A stretch of DNA of 46,810 nucleotides from Clostridia bacterium (GTDB taxonomy: Bacteria > Bacillota > Clostridia > JAQVDB01): NCBI GenBank assembly GCA_028698525.1, contig JAQVDB010000006.1, positions 1 through 46,810 of the forward strand. Reading direction: 5' to 3'. The translations under genes and the position numbers were made by a program. The notes under the pieces are model-generated. The model did not search any database and was not told the DNA's origin. It worked only from the letters and a program-made list of their open reading frames with translations. How positions within the stretch are numbered: position 1 is the stretch's first letter; every line of letters starts with the position of its first letter. This document shows positions 2,702 through 25,294 of the stretch, in pieces.

Positions 2702-3325
2702 TTGTTTGGAACCAATTTAATGTCCATACTATATAGTCTTCCTGCTATTTTTATTGCTTTTTCGTTCCATGAATATGCCCATGCCTATGTAGCAGATAGG
2801 CTCGGAGATCCTACGCCTAGAAGTCAGGGGAGATTGACATTAGATCCTTTCAGTCATATAGATATATTCGGCTTTCTTTTGCTCCTTTTCGCCGGATTTG
2901 GATGGGCTAAACCTGTGCAGATAAATCCTACATATTTTAAAGACAGAAAAAAAGGTGAGATCAAGGTAGCAGTAGCTGGAGTCTGCATGAATCTGATTTT
3001 AGCATTTGTATCCTATTTTGTATTAGTGTTATTATCTAATTTTTTTATAATAGATAATACTATATATAATATAATCTATTATATATACAGCATAAACATA
3101 GTCCTCGCTGTTTTTAACATCTTGCCTATCCCGCCTTTAGACGGATCTAAAATATTACTTAACTTATTGCCATATAATCGTAGAGGTGCTTATTATAACT
3201 TTGAAAGATATGGTTTCATAATATTGATAATACTTATTATTACCAATGCGTTGGACTTAATTCTGTATCCATTGATAAATTTTATACAGCTGATAATAAC
3301 AAGCATTGTACATTTAATTCTTTAA
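2702..3325 (+). CDS. Site-2 protease family (M50) membrane metalloprotease
   Basis: Intramembrane zinc protease of the YdiL/YwhC-like small M50 group; its substrate is unknown. The zinc motif HEYAH lies in the first membrane segment (about residues 18-22) and the distal ligand region is the ILPIPPLDG motif near residue 140. About 207 residues with several hydrophobic segments. The longest frame starts at a GTG (2693) that lies inside the AGGTGA ribosome binding site (2691-2696). The in-frame TTG at 2702, 5 nt downstream, is therefore the likely start. It stands alone between lysA and trpS. The sporulation proteases SpoIVFB and RseP also belong to M50, but this protein has neither a PDZ nor a CBS domain, so it is neither RseP nor a CBS-containing SpoIVFB. 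Confidence 0.85.
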   Translation: MFGTNLMSILYSLPAIFIAFSFHEYAHAYVADRLGDPTPRSQGRLTLDPFSHIDIFGFLLLLFAGFGWAKPVQINPTYFKDRKKGEIKVAVAGVCMNLILAFVSYFVLVLLSNFFIIDNTIYNIIYYIYSINIVLAVFNILPIPPLDGSKILLNLLPYNRRGAYYNFERYGFIILIILIITNALDLILYPLINFIQLIITSIVHLIL

Positions 3326-18498: not shown

Positions 18499-18564
18499 TC
18501 CTTGTATAAAATACAAAAAATATATATAATTATTATTAAGATTTGTAGAATGGCGGGGGTTTTT

Positions 18565-18978
18565 ATGGAACGATACGGCAGTAAAGAGATTGCTAGCGTT
18601 GCACTGAAGATGAGTATCACTCATAGTCGTAACGAAGAAGTCAGATTAAAAGAGGAATACCTGCAAAAAGACATTAAAACTGCAGCGGTGGATTATGGTG
18701 GGGAATTTGCTAATTCAGTGATGAGGATAATTGAAAGGGCCGTTGTTGCTGCAAAAAGGGAAGGTGTTATATCTGCTAGCCATGCAGAAGAAGGTGCTAT
18801 TGCAGGTGCTGCTCATGAAGCATTGAACCAGATACTACCTAAAGCATTAGGTCTGAATGTAGGTGGGAAAATAGGCATAGCTAGATATAATGACCATGTA
18901 AGTGTGGCAATCTTTTTTGGGATAGGATTGCTGCATTTAAATGAAATAGCAATAGGTCTAGGTCATAGAGTGGTATAA
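18565..18978 (+). CDS. HutP-family protein
   Basis: 137 residues related to HutP, the histidine- and Mg2+-dependent RNA-binding antiterminator of the Bacillus hut operon. Shared features are the helical VVAAKREGVIS segment, the AHEAL helix and the C-terminal sheet VSVAIFFGIGLLHLNEIAIGLGH. No hut genes are near; aroH and cmk follow. By my recalled alignment the metal-binding histidines of Bacillus HutP are replaced (see findings), so histidine-dependent antitermination should not be assumed. The longest frame begins at 18502, but ATG 18565 with GGGGG upstream gives the family N-terminus. Confidence 0.7.
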   Translation: MERYGSKEIASVALKMSITHSRNEEVRLKEEYLQKDIKTAAVDYGGEFANSVMRIIERAVVAAKREGVISASHAEEGAIAGAAHEALNQILPKALGLNVGGKIGIARYNDHVSVAIFFGIGLLHLNEIAIGLGHRVV

Positions 18979-18994
18979 TGATGGAGGTAGTTTG

Positions 18995-19366
18995 ATGTAT
19001 CTTGTTGCTATCCGTGGTGCTATAACAGTTGAAAATGATACAAAAAAAGATATTTTAAGAAATACAGAGCTGCTATTAAAAGAAATAATGTGTCAAAATA
19101 ATATAGAAAAAGAGGAAATTATAAGTGTTTTTTTTACCGCTACAAGAGACTTAACGGCTGTATATCCAGCCGTTGCTGCAAGGGAACTAGGCATTGTTAA
19201 TGCTGCTTTGATGTGTGCAAATGAAATGGATATAAAAAATAGTCTTAATATGTGTATAAGAGTGATGGTACAGGCCAATTCAGAAATATCACAAAAAGAA
19301 GTTAAGCATATCTATCTTAAACAAGCAAAAACTCTTAGGCCGGATATTACTGGAATAATATGTTGA
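18995..19366 (+). CDS. aroH: Chorismate mutase, AroH type
   Basis: Converts chorismate to prephenate for phenylalanine and tyrosine synthesis. The trimeric AroH fold of about 120 residues is evident: LVAIRGAITVENDTK at the start carries the active-site Arg, FFTATRDLTAVYPAVAAR the second Arg region, and IRVMVQAN precedes the C-terminal strand. ATG 18995 lies 7 nt after GGAGGT; an adjacent TTG at 18992 is less likely. It follows the HutP-family gene by 16 nt, probably in one transcript, and is closed by a terminator. Confidence 0.93.
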   Translation: MYLVAIRGAITVENDTKKDILRNTELLLKEIMCQNNIEKEEIISVFFTATRDLTAVYPAVAARELGIVNAALMCANEMDIKNSLNMCIRVMVQANSEISQKEVKHIYLKQAKTLRPDITGIIC

Positions 19367-19373
19367 TATTATA

Positions 19374-19406
19374 TACCACCTTTAGACGGTGGTAGTTTTA
19401 TTTTTG
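19374..19406 (+). terminator. Terminator after aroH
   Basis: TACCACC (19374-19380) pairs with GGTGGTA (19388-19394), 7-nt loop, followed by GTTTTATTTTT. Confidence 0.85.
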
Positions 19407-19424
19407 ATTTAGGAGGGTTTGCCT

Positions 19425-20081
19425 TTGAACAAAAGAAATATCGCAATCGACGGTCCTGCAGGGTCTGGCAAAAGTACCATAGCAAAATTACTTTCAGAGA
19501 AAATGGGATATATATATCTTGATACCGGTGCGATGTACAGAGCAGCTGCGCTCTATTTTATAAGAAAAAATATTAAACCTTGTGAAAAAGATAAAATAAT
19601 CAGTGAATTAAAAAATATTAATATTAACATAGAATATCATCTGGACAAGCAGTTGGTATTTCTAAATGGTGAAGACGTAACTGGGAAAATAAGGACTCCT
19701 GAGGTTTCATCCATGGCCTCAAACATAGCTGTGATACCCGATGTAAGAATAATGTTGGTAGATATTCAGAGGAATATTGCTAACAATAATAATGTTATAA
19801 TGGATGGAAGGGATATAGGTACATATGTATTGCCACATGCAGATAAGAAATTTTATTTAACTGCTACAGTAGAAGAAAGAGCAGTAAGAAGATATAAGGA
19901 ATTAAAAGAAAAAGGTTGCAACGTTAACTTAACGGAGCTAAAAAAAGAAATCAAAAAAAGAGATGAAAATGATATGAACAGAGAATTTGCACCTTTAAAA
20001 AAAGCTTCTGATGCAATTTTAATCGACACAACAAACAAATCAATCGAACAAGTAGTTGCTAAAATATTAGCTCATATATAA
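19425..20081 (+). CDS. cmk: Cytidylate kinase
   Basis: Phosphorylates CMP and dCMP to the diphosphates. The P-loop IDGPAGSGKSTIAKLL is at about residues 7-22; LDTGAMYRA, MDGRDIGTYVLP and the lid RDENDMNRE follow. 218 residues. The longest frame begins with TTG 19419, one base after AGGAGGG; TTG 19425 with 7-nt spacing is preferred. It starts a cmk-plsC-ispH/S1 series as in many Clostridia. Confidence 0.95.
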   Translation: MNKRNIAIDGPAGSGKSTIAKLLSEKMGYIYLDTGAMYRAAALYFIRKNIKPCEKDKIISELKNININIEYHLDKQLVFLNGEDVTGKIRTPEVSSMASNIAVIPDVRIMLVDIQRNIANNNNVIMDGRDIGTYVLPHADKKFYLTATVEERAVRRYKELKEKGCNVNLTELKKEIKKRDENDMNREFAPLKKASDAILIDTTNKSIEQVVAKILAHI

Positions 20082-20102
20082 TAATAGTATGGTAGGGATA
20101 AT

Positions 20103-20678
20103 ATGTTCTATAAATTTGCAAAAATTATTGTATCCGTTATACTTAAATTGATGTATAATATTGAAGTTCAAGGTTTGGATAATATTCCTAAAAAAGGGCC
20201 CTGTATAGTATTTTCAAATCATATATCATATCTAGACCCTCTGGTTATAGGAATAACTTTAGAAAGACAGATTTTTTTTATGGCAAAAAAAGAACTTTAC
20301 AAAAATCCTATAATGAGGTTTATATTAAACCATTTAGGTGCGTTTCCAGTGAGCAGGGGAAAAGGAGATATCGGTGCAATAAAAAATTCATTGAAAGTTT
20401 TAAGAAGAGGGGATATATTCGGGATCTTCCCTGAAGGTACTAGAAGTAAGAATAAAAATTTAAAAAAGTTAGAACCAGGCATTGCTCTTATAGCTTTAAG
20501 GTCTAAAGCTCCTTTGATACCTATATACATAAAGACCGATTACAAATTGTTTAGCAAAGTAAGCGTCAATATCGGTAAGCCCATTAATTTGGATGGCTAT
20601 AAAGGTAAAAATCAAAAGGAAATGCTAGATGATATAAGTCAATATATTTTAGACCAATTGATGAAATTAGGTGAATAA
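20103..20678 (+). CDS. plsC: 1-acyl-sn-glycerol-3-phosphate acyltransferase
   Basis: Acylates lysophosphatidic acid to phosphatidic acid at the membrane. NHISYLDP holds the catalytic HX4D motif (about residue 40), and FPEGTRS is the substrate-binding motif; the N-terminus is hydrophobic. 191 residues is typical of the short bacterial form. It lies 21 nt after cmk, and its end carries the AGGTGA that serves the next gene. Confidence 0.93.
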   Translation: MFYKFAKIIVSVILKLMYNIEVQGLDNIPKKGPCIVFSNHISYLDPLVIGITLERQIFFMAKKELYKNPIMRFILNHLGAFPVSRGKGDIGAIKNSLKVLRRGDIFGIFPEGTRSKNKNLKKLEPGIALIALRSKAPLIPIYIKTDYKLFSKVSVNIGKPINLDGYKGKNQKEMLDDISQYILDQLMKLGE

Positions 20679-20682
20679 TTTA

Positions 20683-22686
20683 ATGGATATAATTGTAGCA
20701 AAAAATGCTGGTTTTTGTTTCGGAGTAAAAAGAGCGATAGATATTGTTTTTGAGACAATAAAAAATAAAAATGGTGATATCTATACCTTAGGCCCCATAA
20801 TCCATAATAAGCAGATGGTCGATAAATTAAGAGATATGGGGGTTAATGTAATTGAAGATATAGATCTAATTGACAAGGGCAATGTAGTAATAAGGTCCCA
20901 TGGAGTGTCCCCTGATGTGTATCGGAATCAAAAAATAAGCATTGGAAATATTAATTTAATAGATGCAACTTGTCCTTATGTCAAGAGAATACATAATACT
21001 GTTAAAAAGTATCATGATAAAGGATATGAGATCATTATATTAGGTGATAGTAATCACCCTGAAGTAATCGGAATTAACGGTTGGTGCAATAATCAGGCAA
21101 ATATCATAAGCAGCATAGATGATATAACCGAAAATATCAATTGTATAAAAAAAGCATGTGTTGTTGCACAAACTACTTTAAATAAAAATTTATGGGGGCA
21201 GCTTCTACCTGATATTACTTCACGTATAAAAGACATAGTCGTGTTTAATACGATATGCAATGCTACTGAAAAGCGTCAAACAGAGGCTGACTATATTTCC
21301 AAAGAAGCAGATGTGGTTTTTGTAATAGGCGGAAAAAACAGTTCAAATACAAAAAAATTATACCAGATTTGTAAAAGAAACTGTACTCAAACCTATCTCA
21401 TTGAAACAGTAAATGAAATTAATTTTAATAATATTAATTCAAAATCAGTTGTAGGAATAACAGCTGGTGCTTCTACACCTGATTGGATAATAAGGGAGGT
21501 TATTAACAAGATGAGTGAAGAAATAAAAAATGAACAGATGAGTGTTTTAGATGAAGAAGTAATAAATTTATATGAAGGAGATATCGTTAAAGGCAATGTA
21601 CTAAGAGTTGACCAAGATCAAGTTATTGTTAATATAGGCTATAAATTTGATGGTGTAATTCCTAAAAATGAAATTTTGCTATCCGATGATCAACAACTTT
21701 CTGAATTATTTAAAGAAGGAGATAGCTTTAATGTATACATTAAAAAGGTGGATGAAAAAGCAAATACAGTTATTTTGTCTAAGAAAAGAATAGACATAGA
21801 AAATGCATGGAATAAGTTACAACAAGCCTATGATAGCAATCAAACACTTATAGGTAAAGTAAGTAGCATTGTAAAGGGAGGCCTTTTATTAAATATCGAT
21901 GGAATAGAAGTATTTATGCCCGGCTCACATGTGGATATAAAGTTTATAAAAGATTTCAATGGTTTTATGGGAAAAGATTTTGAAGTAAAAATAATAGAAA
22001 TTGACAAAAGTAAAAATAAAGTTATTGCTTCCAGAAAAGCTGTCTTAGAGCAAGCCATTGAAGAGAAAAAGGAAGAAATTTTTTCAACAATCAAAGTGGA
22101 TAGCGTAATAAAAGGAAAAGTGAAAAGCTTCACAAACTTTGGCGCTTTTATAGACATAGGCGGTATTGATGGGCTAATACACATATCAGATCTATCCTGG
22201 GGACGAATCAAGCATCCATCAGAAGTATTATCCATAGGGGATGAAATAGATGTTAAGGTTTTGGATTTTGATAAAGAAAAAGAAAAAATTTCTCTAGGAT
22301 ATAAGCAGACGCTTCCTGATCCTTGGGAATATGTAGACAAAAAATATCCAGTAGGTTCTATCATCGATGGTAAAGTAGTAAGAATAGCTTCCTTTGGGGC
22401 TTTTGTTGAATTAGAGCCAGGAGTAGATGCCTTATTGCACATTTCTCAGATATCTGATAAGAGGATAGAAAAAGTGGAAGATGCTTTAAAGGTTGGAGAT
22501 CAGGTAAAGGCAAAAGTTATGGAAGTCAATAAAAAGGATAAAAGAATAAGTCTTAGTATAAAAGAAACTATCGAAAGACAAACACCTAAAAACAATAAAT
22601 CTGGTAACAACAAGGATAAGTTTCAAAAAGAAGAAATGAGGATATCTATCAAAGAAATGTTACCTGATTTAGATATTGAAAAATAA
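20683..22686 (+). CDS. ispH: IspH (HMBPP reductase) fused to ribosomal protein S1-like domains
   Basis: 667 residues in one frame. Residues 1 to about 275 are IspH, the [4Fe-4S] enzyme that ends the MEP isoprenoid pathway; the cluster cysteines are Cys12 (AGFCFGVK), Cys97 (DATCPY) and Cys192 (NTICNAT). The rest holds four S1 RNA-binding domains starting near VKGNVLRV, IGKVSSIV, IKGKVKSFTNFGAF and IDGKVVRIASFGAF, the last two the best conserved, and a lysine-rich tail. This fusion is known in Clostridia. The start is ATG 20683, 9 nt after AGGTGA inside plsC. An internal ribosome binding site and ATG lie at the domain junction. Confidence 0.93.
   Translation: MDIIVAKNAGFCFGVKRAIDIVFETIKNKNGDIYTLGPIIHNKQMVDKLRDMGVNVIEDIDLIDKGNVVIRSHGVSPDVYRNQKISIGNINLIDATCPYVKRIHNTVKKYHDKGYEIIILGDSNHPEVIGINGWCNNQANIISSIDDITENINCIKKACVVAQTTLNKNLWGQLLPDITSRIKDIVVFNTICNATEKRQTEADYISKEADVVFVIGGKNSSNTKKLYQICKRNCTQTYLIETVNEINFNNINSKSVVGITAGASTPDWIIREVINKMSEEIKNEQMSVLDEEVINLYEGDIVKGNVLRVDQDQVIVNIGYKFDGVIPKNEILLSDDQQLSELFKEGDSFNVYIKKVDEKANTVILSKKRIDIENAWNKLQQAYDSNQTLIGKVSSIVKGGLLLNIDGIEVFMPGSHVDIKFIKDFNGFMGKDFEVKIIEIDKSKNKVIASRKAVLEQAIEEKKEEIFSTIKVDSVIKGKVKSFTNFGAFIDIGGIDGLIHISDLSWGRIKHPSEVLSIGDEIDVKVLDFDKEKEKISLGYKQTLPDPWEYVDKKYPVGSIIDGKVVRIASFGAFVELEPGVDALLHISQISDKRIEKVEDALKVGDQVKAKVMEVNKKDKRISLSIKETIERQTPKNNKSGNNKDKFQKEEMRISIKEMLPDLDIEK
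21492..21513 (+). promoter_or_regulatory. Internal ribosome binding site and ATG at the IspH/S1 junction
   Basis: AAGGGAGG at 21492-21499 is followed 11 nt later by an in-frame ATG at 21511, which would start MSEEIKNEQMS. Initiation here would give a separate S1 protein of 391 residues. The spacing is slightly long, so efficiency is uncertain. Confidence 0.5.
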
Positions 22687-22691
22687 AATGA

Positions 22692-22720
22692 TTTACAAAA
22701 AAAATTGTCTATGTTAAAAT
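22692..22720 (+). promoter_or_regulatory. Sigma-A promoter of rpsO
   Basis: TTTACA (22692-22697), 17-nt spacer, TAAAAT (22715-22720). It starts 6 nt past the ispH-S1 stop and implies a leader of nearly 90 nt. Confidence 0.7.
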
Positions 22721-22727
22721 AGTTTAT

Positions 22728-22810
22728 GTTGGCTATATTAACCATATGCAGGGATATACGATTCTCCGACGTTGTCTCGGCTTATGGCGTTTTAAAAATA
22801 AGGAGGTGAT
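22728..22810 (+). promoter_or_regulatory. Structured rpsO leader, possible S15 autoregulatory element
   Basis: The leader is unusually GC-rich for this genome around 22758-22798. CCGA pairs with TCGG in a small hairpin (around 22776-22790), and outer ACG/CGT pairs could close it. rpsO leaders of Firmicutes often bind S15 to repress translation, but I cannot match this one to a specific known structure by eye. Confidence 0.4.
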
Positions 22811-22814
22811 ATTT

Positions 22815-23078
22815 ATGGACAAACAATTAAAGCAGGAAATTATTACTAAGTACAAACTTCATGAAAACGATACTGGTTCTCCTGAAGTTCAGATAGCTAT
22901 TTTAACAGAAAGAATCAACCATTTGAATGAGCATTTAAAGATCCATAAGAAAGACCATCATTCAAGAAGAGGACTGCTTAAAATGGTGGGAAAAAGAAGA
23001 GGATTGCTTAATTATTTAAAAAACAAAGATATTGAGCGATACCGAACAATCCTCAGCAAGTTAGAGCTTAGAAAATAA
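22815..23078 (+). CDS. rpsO: 30S ribosomal protein S15
   Basis: Primary 16S rRNA-binding protein of the central domain. 87 residues with the diagnostic [29 protein letters not shown] and [11 protein letters not shown]. The strong AAGGAGGTGA precedes ATG 22815; the longer upstream frame crosses the structured leader and is not coding. It is followed by a terminator and then pnp, the same order as in Bacillus and E. coli. Confidence 0.97.
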
Positions 23079-23081
23079 ACG

Positions 23082-23107
23082 AGCGGGGAAAATTCCCGCT
23101 TTTTTTA
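23082..23107 (+). terminator. Terminator after rpsO
   Basis: AGCGGGGA (23082-23089) pairs with TTCCCGCT (23093-23100), one G-T pair, 3-nt loop, followed by a run of T. Confidence 0.9.
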
Positions 23108-23173
23108 TTATTCTGTTTTAATCATGTTTTTCTATGTTTTGTGAGAAAATAGTATTTGAAAGGAGGTAGTATT

Positions 23174-25294
23174 ATGAGTAAAGTTTTTAAAATGGAACTA
23201 GCAGGAAGAGAATTAATAATTGAAACAGGAAAACTAGCACAATTAGCAAACGGTTCTGTACTTGCAAAGTATGGAGATACTGCTATATTAGTGACTGCTA
23301 CTGCTTCGGATCAGCCTAGAGAAGGGATTGACTTTTTCCCTTTGAGTGTTAATTTTGAAGAAAAGTTATATGCTGTAGGAAAGATACCTGGCAGCTTCAT
23401 AAAAAGAGAGGGAAAACCTACAGATAAAGCAATATTGACTTCCAGGCTTATAGATAGGCCTTTAAGACCCTTGTTCGATAAAAATATGAGAAATGATGTG
23501 CAAATAGTAGCTACAGTTCTTTCTGTTGACCCCGATAATACCCCTGATGTCCTAGCAATGATTGGAAGTTCTGCAGCCTTATCAATTTCCGACATTCCAT
23601 TTGATGGACCTACTGGCTCTGTATCAGTGGGATATATTGATAACGAGTTTGTTATCAATCCTAATAGTGAGCAAAGAGAAAAGAGCTTGCTCGATCTTGT
23701 AGTTTCAGGTACAGAAGATGCTATTACCATGGTGGAGGCTGGAGCTCATGAAATATCCGAGGATTTGATGATTGAAGCTATCATGTTTGCTCACCAAGAG
23801 ATAAAAAGAATAGTAGGGTTTCAGCAAAAGATAGTGGAAGAGATAGGAAAACCAAAGTTTGAACCTCAACTTTATGAGATAGATCCACAATTGGATCTGG
23901 ATGTATCAGAGTTTATATCAGATAAAATTGAAGCAGCTATACAAACACCTGATAAATCTGAAAGAGACAAAAATATAAAACTCCTTAAAAATGAGGTGTA
24001 TGAAGCTTTTAGTGAAAAATATCCAGATCAGGAAAAGGATATTGATTCAGTAATTGAGGGTATAGCCAAAAAGGTTGTAAGGAAAAATATATTAGAACAC
24101 GAAAAAAGACCTGACGGAAGAACCCTTAAGCAGATAAGGCCCATAAGTTCTGAAGTAGGTTTACTTCCTCGAGCGCATGGATCAGGATTATTTACAAGGG
24201 GTCAAACCCAAGTCATGACAGTAGCCACACTAGGTGCTCTGGGAGATGTTCAGATATTAGATGACATAGGGGAAGATGAAAGTAAAAGATACATGCATCA
24301 TTATAATTTCCCGCCATATTCAGTTGGTGAAACAGGTGTTATTCGGGGACCTGGTAGAAGGGAGATAGGCCACGGAGCACTTGCAGAAAGAGCCCTTGAA
24401 CCTATGATACCCGATGAAAACGAATTTCCTTATACCATCAGGTTGGTATCGGAAGTAATGAGTTCAAATGGTTCAACATCTCAAGCCAGCGTATGTGGTA
24501 GTACATTAGCATTGATGGATGCAGGGGTTCCAATTAAATCTCCGGTAGCCGGTATTGCTATGGGGCTTATCAAAGGTGATGAAGGAAAAGTAGCCGTATT
24601 ATCCGATATACAAGGAATAGAAGATTTTTATGGAGACATGGATTTTAAAGTAGCTGGAACTGAAAAAGGGATTACAGCAATTCAAATGGATATAAAAATC
24701 AAGGGCATAGACCAAGAAATATTACAAAAAGCCCTTTATCAAGCAAAAGAAGGCAGATTGTATATATTGGATAAAATGCTGCAAGTAATAAATCGGCCTC
24801 GAAAAGAATTATCAAAATATGCACCTAAGATAATAACCACTACAATCAACCCAGAAAAAATAGGTGACGTCATAGGCCCTGGCGGAAAAGTGATCAATCG
24901 CATAATCGAACAAACAAACGTAAAAATTGATATAGAAGATAATGGGAAAGTATATATCGCTTCTTCTGATGCTGAAAATGCTGAAAAAGCGCTAAAGATC
25001 GTTGAAGGTATAGCAAAGGATGTAGAGCCAGGAGAAATCTATCTTGGAAAGGTAGTTCGCATACTTCCATTTGGCGCATTTGTACAAATTGCACCAGGCA
25101 AGGAAGGGCTTGTCCATATATCTAAACTGGCACTTGAACATGTGAAAAAAGTAGAAGATGTAGTTAAAGTAGGCGATGAAATATTAGTTAAAGTTACTGA
25201 CATAGACAAGCAAGGAAGAATAAATCTTTCACGAAAGAGTTTGCTGATTGAACAGGAGAAAGCTAAACAAAAGAATAAAAAAGAAGAAAAATAA
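23174..25294 (+). CDS. pnp: Polynucleotide phosphorylase
   Basis: 3'-5' phosphorolytic exoribonuclease of the degradosome. 706 residues: two RNase PH domains (the first with [12 protein letters not shown] and [12 protein letters not shown], the second with [14 protein letters not shown]-like [14 protein letters not shown] and [17 protein letters not shown]), a KH domain with [15 protein letters not shown], and a C-terminal S1 domain with [23 protein letters not shown]. The longest frame starts at a TTG next to the ribosome binding site; ATG 23174 after AAGGAGG is chosen. The lysine-rich tail is normal for Firmicutes. Confidence 0.97.

Follow-up and report, generated by a model that had tools for sequence, protein, structure and literature searches.

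The ispH-S1 gene of this clostridial genome very probably encodes two proteins, a 75 kDa IspH-S1 fusion and a free 44 kDa S1 that would be made by internal initiation, as a gene within a gene. The fusions are known from Rao et al. (2015), who described IspH-RPS1 proteins as 'Rosetta stone' fusions of anaerobes, mostly Firmicutes; the main text of that paper reports that a search of the fusion-bearing organisms turned up no further ispH or rps1 gene, and it leaves the fusion's role open (PMC4746011). Internal in-frame initiation is a known kind of event, of which IspH-S1 would be a new and widespread case.

The window, the whole 46,810-nt stretch of DNA that was analysed, holds the following features of the gene.

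20683..22686, + strand: fused ispH-S1 open reading frame, 667 aa, with its ATG at 20683 and its stop codon ending at 22686; NCBIfam NF000907, bifunctional IspH / 30S ribosomal protein S1
20683..21510, + strand: IspH part, 276 codons ahead of the internal ATG; NF009024 covers residues 1-278
20669..20674, + strand: weak Shine-Dalgarno-like AGGTGA of the ispH start, directly 5' of the stop codon of the plsC-like upstream ORF; best duplex near the ispH start -3.7 kcal/mol
21492..21499, + strand: internal Shine-Dalgarno (SD) sequence AAGGGAGG, contained in codons ATA AGG GAG GTT (I-R-E-V) at the IspH C-terminus; best duplex -11.0 kcal/mol
21511..21513, + strand: internal ATG, the putative start of free S1, residue 277 of the fusion
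21511..22686, + strand: putative free S1, 391 aa, computed mass 44.2 kDa, with four Pfam S1 stretches

An earlier note on this DNA had pointed to AAGGGAGG, followed 11 nt later by an in-frame ATG at the IspH/S1 boundary, and to frames of 667 and 391 residues; the sequence and its list of open reading frames bear out each of these. The 11-nt spacer that separates AAGGGAGG from the ATG at 21511-21513 reads TTATTAACAAG. The complete ORF gave a full-length match to NF000907 above the curated cut-off (820.2 bits, cut-off 624, residues 1-660), and Pfam recognised LYTB and four S1 stretches in it. The stand-alone models for IspH (NF009024) and S1 (NF005208) covered residues 1-278 and 283-661, respectively; with the internal ATG at residue 277, the site falls on the boundary between the domains. 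The computed masses are 75.0 kDa for the fusion and 44.2 kDa for the part from the internal ATG. The inner frame is a complete unit: it contains all four S1 stretches, it scores above the NF005208 cut-off (435.5 bits, cut-off 368), and its N-terminal length is near that of free S1, with 22 residues from the N-terminus to the first-domain anchor, compared to medians of 20 and 21 in two kinds of free S1 and 28 in fused genes. The N-terminus read from the internal ATG resembles that of free S1, as the earlier note had judged from its natural look. The window gene has what marks a gene within a gene, an in-frame start codon with its own SD sequence inside a longer ORF.

A site of this sort in a single genome proves nothing by itself. 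The 41 long ORFs of the window contain 297 internal in-frame ATGs. Six of these, with 21511 among them, have a GGAGG whose end lies 4-12 nt upstream, and two of these six (13428 and 15013) resemble true gene starts; accidental look-alikes make up about 1% of internal ATGs in one genome. It is conservation across species that places the site far beyond chance.

We assembled 305 loci with an IspH domain, window included, of which 251 are fused in frame with S1 and 54 are not. These comprised 129 loci (L010-L138) from 391 genomes of the class, 70 loci from 80 chosen lower-scoring genomes (77 of them matching), 70 loci from 249 genomes of the phylum, and 30 loci from 36 chosen genomes (34 matching), with five named contigs and the window completing the set. 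Loci were picked by score, not at random. Fusobacteria and further phyla also carry the fusion. L002 and L003 (another gene) and L009 (without the IspH part) were left out, and five of the 54 unfused loci could not be scored: L184 and L243 (contig ends), L185 (no motif), L248 (frame break) and L250 (run of N). Candidate natural splits, flagged by 'stops inside' in several class genomes, were rejected, as the boundaries that were inspected (e.g., L015, L018, L022) proved to be intact fusions.

GGAGG or GAGGGGG is present at the homologous codons in 245 of the 251 fused genes, and a strong SD sequence with an in-frame start codon in 247. The start is ATG in 243 of these, at the same position as in the window (227 genes), one codon upstream with 8-nt spacing (15 genes) or three codons downstream (1 gene); the remaining four (L269, L295, L299 and L300) have GTG. 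Among the first 175 fused genes, 173 have GGAGG, and in all 173 an in-frame ATG comes after it, spaced by 11 nt in 167 genes and by 8 nt in 6. By comparison, GGAGG was found at only 9 of 1905 other internal ATGs in fused genes. In L303, a three-codon insertion shifted the SD sequence and the ATG jointly. Two genes of one genus, L254 and L255, are the sole members of the 251 with no recognisable internal site, which indicates that the site is not indispensable; they may produce nothing but the fusion, or initiate S1 by other means.

The same sequence starts S1 where the two genes are not fused. In 19 loci, free S1 begins within ispH in another frame, and in 15 of these (L166, L167, L169, L170, L172-L174, L176, L178, L179, L181, L244, L246, L247, L249) S1 starts with ATG or GTG 9-13 nt past the homologous GGAGG. 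S1 is out of frame with ispH in those 15 loci and so cannot derive from a fusion there, and the site that the earlier note had proposed as an S1 start is the one that serves free S1. The out-of-frame S1 of L160, L251, L257 and L259 uses a site slightly further on; L257 nevertheless keeps the homologous GGAGG without apparent use, so the motif itself is counted in 16 of the 19 loci. Seven further loci start S1 past the ispH stop codon from an SD sequence of its own, and 23 have no S1 within the 1,371-2,985 nt downstream that were examined. GGAGG is missing from the motif position in 27 of these 30 loci without an S1 start inside ispH, the exceptions being L161, L262 and L267.

Two families of relatives are informative here. 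L175 has a separate S1 with a new SD sequence just past ispH, and its old site now reads AAA GAA, in a family that is otherwise fused (11 of 12 sampled). In another family the genes overlap out of frame in L166, L169, L170, L172, L173, L174, L176, L178 and L179 and are fused in L253, with GGAGG in all. Together these cases indicate that the reading phase changes with the initiation site left in place. A phylogenetic pairs test on the IspH tree yielded four independent supported pairs, all in the expected direction (p 0.125), and is not relied on here. We also observed, from the printed sequences, that GGAGG and ATG have been relocated downstream into the linker in L258 and L305 (e.g., CAGGAGGAATGGGACATG in L258); in L257 and L259, of the same family, CAGGAGG at that linker place starts S1 out of frame. 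Across this sample, the conserved feature of the gene pair is best read as S1's own start inside ispH, and not as the fusion.

Codon usage at the boundary indicates that conservation acts at the nucleotide level, beyond the needs of the protein. The Glu codon is GAG in 245 of 246 genes, where the usage of the individual genes predicts 72 (z 25.6; the runner-up of 44 conserved Glu columns has 4.5). Where Lys precedes this Glu, its codon is AAG in 136 of 136 genes, where 53 would be expected (z 15.6; the runner-up of 45 columns has 5.1). The preceding residue itself varies among Lys, Glu, Arg, Gln, Gly, Ser and Asp; in 246 of the 251 genes its codon is AAG, GAG, AGG, CAG, GGG, CGG or TCG, and so ends in G. 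On a tree of the fused proteins built without the boundary columns, this codon underwent 39 amino-acid changes versus 3 third-base changes, and the Glu codon a single third-base change, compared to 18-70 (median 40) in 52 control Glu/Lys columns. The conservation that the earlier note had named as the check on its proposal is therefore present: almost every fused gene retains the site, despite both codon bias and replacements of amino acids. Constraint on the protein alone, with the C-terminal helix P-x-W-I-I-K-E-V-I-x-K-M kept for the sake of IspH and GGAGG and ATG arising as by-products of its codons, would account for the frequent E-V of stand-alone IspH, and a Glu with Val or Ala after it does fix part of GAGG. 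Such constraint leaves the third bases free, yet they are all but invariant, and the preceding residue was replaced over and over while its G was kept. A near-obligatory preference for GAG and AAG is excluded by each gene's own usage, and IspH genes without an S1 start inside mostly lack GGAGG (27 of 30, as above) and nearly all lack the Met. We regard this explanation as hardly credible. Equally hard to credit is the notion of a relic, inherited from separate ispH and S1 genes that were fused by loss of a stop codon, and now unused. The overlapping and adjacent arrangements seen in relatives are what such a history would predict, yet third bases of control columns changed at least 18 times on the very tree on which the Glu codon changed once, and the old site decayed to AAA GAA in L175, where S1 had gained its own start just past ispH.

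A strong SD sequence within a coding region could in principle slow elongation, although this is debated, and the site sits on a domain boundary; both would suit a programmed pause, in which ribosomes stall on the SD-like sequence and IspH gains time to fold and load its cluster ahead of the emergence of S1, with no initiation. A start codon is not needed for a pause, but 247 of the 251 genes have ATG or GTG behind a strong SD sequence; rather than an SD sequence conserved without a linked start, we found such a codon spaced by 8 or 11 nt in almost every gene. The start codon moves along with the SD sequence in L303, Val at the 11-nt start position without an adjacent ATG is encoded by GTG in four of four cases, and the same SD sequence is the S1 start in out-of-frame relatives. 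A pause without initiation is thus very unlikely, and internal initiation of S1 is the explanation that we carry forward.

To compare the strength of the two starts, we used a simple duplex model against the 16S rRNA tail. The window genome's own 16S rRNA 3' end, ...ACCTCCTTTT, pairs with GGAGGT. A search of this genome for the usual 16S tail, with one mismatch allowed, gave no match, because its 16S rRNA (L309, around base 3075) reads TGAATTACCTCC in place of TGGATCACCTCC, the usual form at that place. Median values are -11.3 kcal/mol for the internal site and -6.8 kcal/mol for the ispH start. The internal site is the stronger of the two in 243 of 249 genes, and still in 242 of 249 if it is compared with the best candidate for the ispH start nearby. 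Values of -10 kcal/mol or lower were reached by 98.8% of the internal starts, compared to 0.5% of the 1905 other internal ATGs in fused genes. Unequal amounts of the two products would fit the stronger internal SD sequence. In C. ljungdahlii, studied by ribosome profiling, the best spacing reported places the 3' end of the SD sequence 8 nt before the start (PMC6203783); the usual 11-nt spacing here is about 3 nt over that optimum and could temper the rate of initiation. Low mRNA structure was rejected as independent evidence: the start region has a mean MFE of -3.55 versus -6.9 to -8.5 at flanking offsets (n=247), and dinucleotide shuffles of 83 of the 247 (every third) had equally low structure (mean z -0.16), so that base composition alone explains it.

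The window genome (2.18 Mb, 97% complete) has three S1-type matches: ispH-S1 itself and two with a single S1 domain, an ORF at the pnp position and one small protein. As the other two have only one S1 domain each, ispH-S1 is the only candidate found for ribosomal S1 in this genome. The gene order across 18502-25294 is a chorismate-mutase-like gene, cmk, plsC, ispH-S1, rpsO and pnp, the neighbours being named from their translations; rpsA of E. coli likewise comes after cmk.

The comparisons establish the site, its nucleotide-level conservation, its link to an S1 start inside ispH and its relative strength; from them we infer how the site would be used in the cell, in what ratio the products would be made and what role each would have. 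Ribosomes starting at the ATG at 20683 would produce the 75 kDa fusion, while those binding the SD sequence at 21492-21499, encoded in the C-terminal codons of IspH, would start at the ATG at 21511 and produce free S1 of 391 aa. Free S1 would probably be the more abundant product, because the internal SD sequence is much stronger than the ispH start and because S1 may be expected at a higher level than a biosynthetic enzyme. IspH and S1 would then be overlapping genes that are in phase by happenstance in most sampled Clostridia and out of phase in some relatives, with the same SD sequence common to both arrangements. The earlier note's suggestion of a second product, free S1, appears on the strength of site conservation to be right in substance, and more general than was proposed. 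With less assurance, we favour the further view that most 'bifunctional IspH/S1' proteins of Clostridia are overlapping pairs frozen in phase; the main S1 would be the free form, and the fusion a minor product that tethers a small part of the IspH to ribosomes or is a tolerated by-product.

The IspH-S1 fusion has so far been taken as a sign of a link between isoprenoid synthesis and translation, with the reason left open (PMC4746011). If S1 has its own internal start, reading phase may account for much of the fusion, the true S1 of a large share of the Clostridia, including gut and industrial species, would be absent from databases, and knock-outs or truncations of 'ispH-S1' would affect two products. 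If the genes are indeed an overlapping pair, the fusion would not be the functional unit that has been assumed. A GGAGG kept through amino-acid changes, combined with relatives that carry the inner gene out of frame, offers a particularly clear comparative signature for other nested genes.

We found no earlier report of an internal S1 start in the full-text literature searched, which largely excludes subscription journals, so that a report elsewhere is possible; the one paper on IspH-S1 fusions in that literature is Rao et al., and the terms 'internal' and 'start codon' are absent from its main text (PMC4746011). In proteomics papers, the matching passages concerned ribosomal proteins S10-S19, and none dealt with IspH-S1. 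Solved structures that matched the S1 part were bS1 chains of other bacteria and gave no information on the start. A 46 kDa protein that co-purified with the C. thermocellum fusion from E. coli has a mass close to that expected for free S1; it was rejected as such, since its fingerprint is that of E. coli Rho, with 69% coverage (PMC4746011).

The gene belongs to the family of Rao et al., with IspH joined to four S1 domains; where the main text of that paper treats it as coding for one fused protein, we identify a probable internal start (PMC4746011). In this respect it is like RpnS within rpn (PMC10327210) and Cas11b within cas8b (PMC11899642), known cases of internal in-frame initiation in which one ORF gives a full-length product and a C-terminal product from an internal start. 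IspH-S1 differs from both, as far as these are described there, in that an entire ribosomal protein would be the inner product, with a metabolic enzyme unrelated to it as the outer part, and in that the same SD sequence serves S1 in relatives where the genes overlap out of frame. It is also like co-directional overlapping operon genes (e.g., PMC2784483), in which the upstream gene contains, at its 3' end, the SD sequence of the downstream one, as in loci among L166-L181 and L244-L249. Unlike those pairs, the upstream frame in the window and its 250 fused relatives has no stop codon and runs on into the downstream gene.
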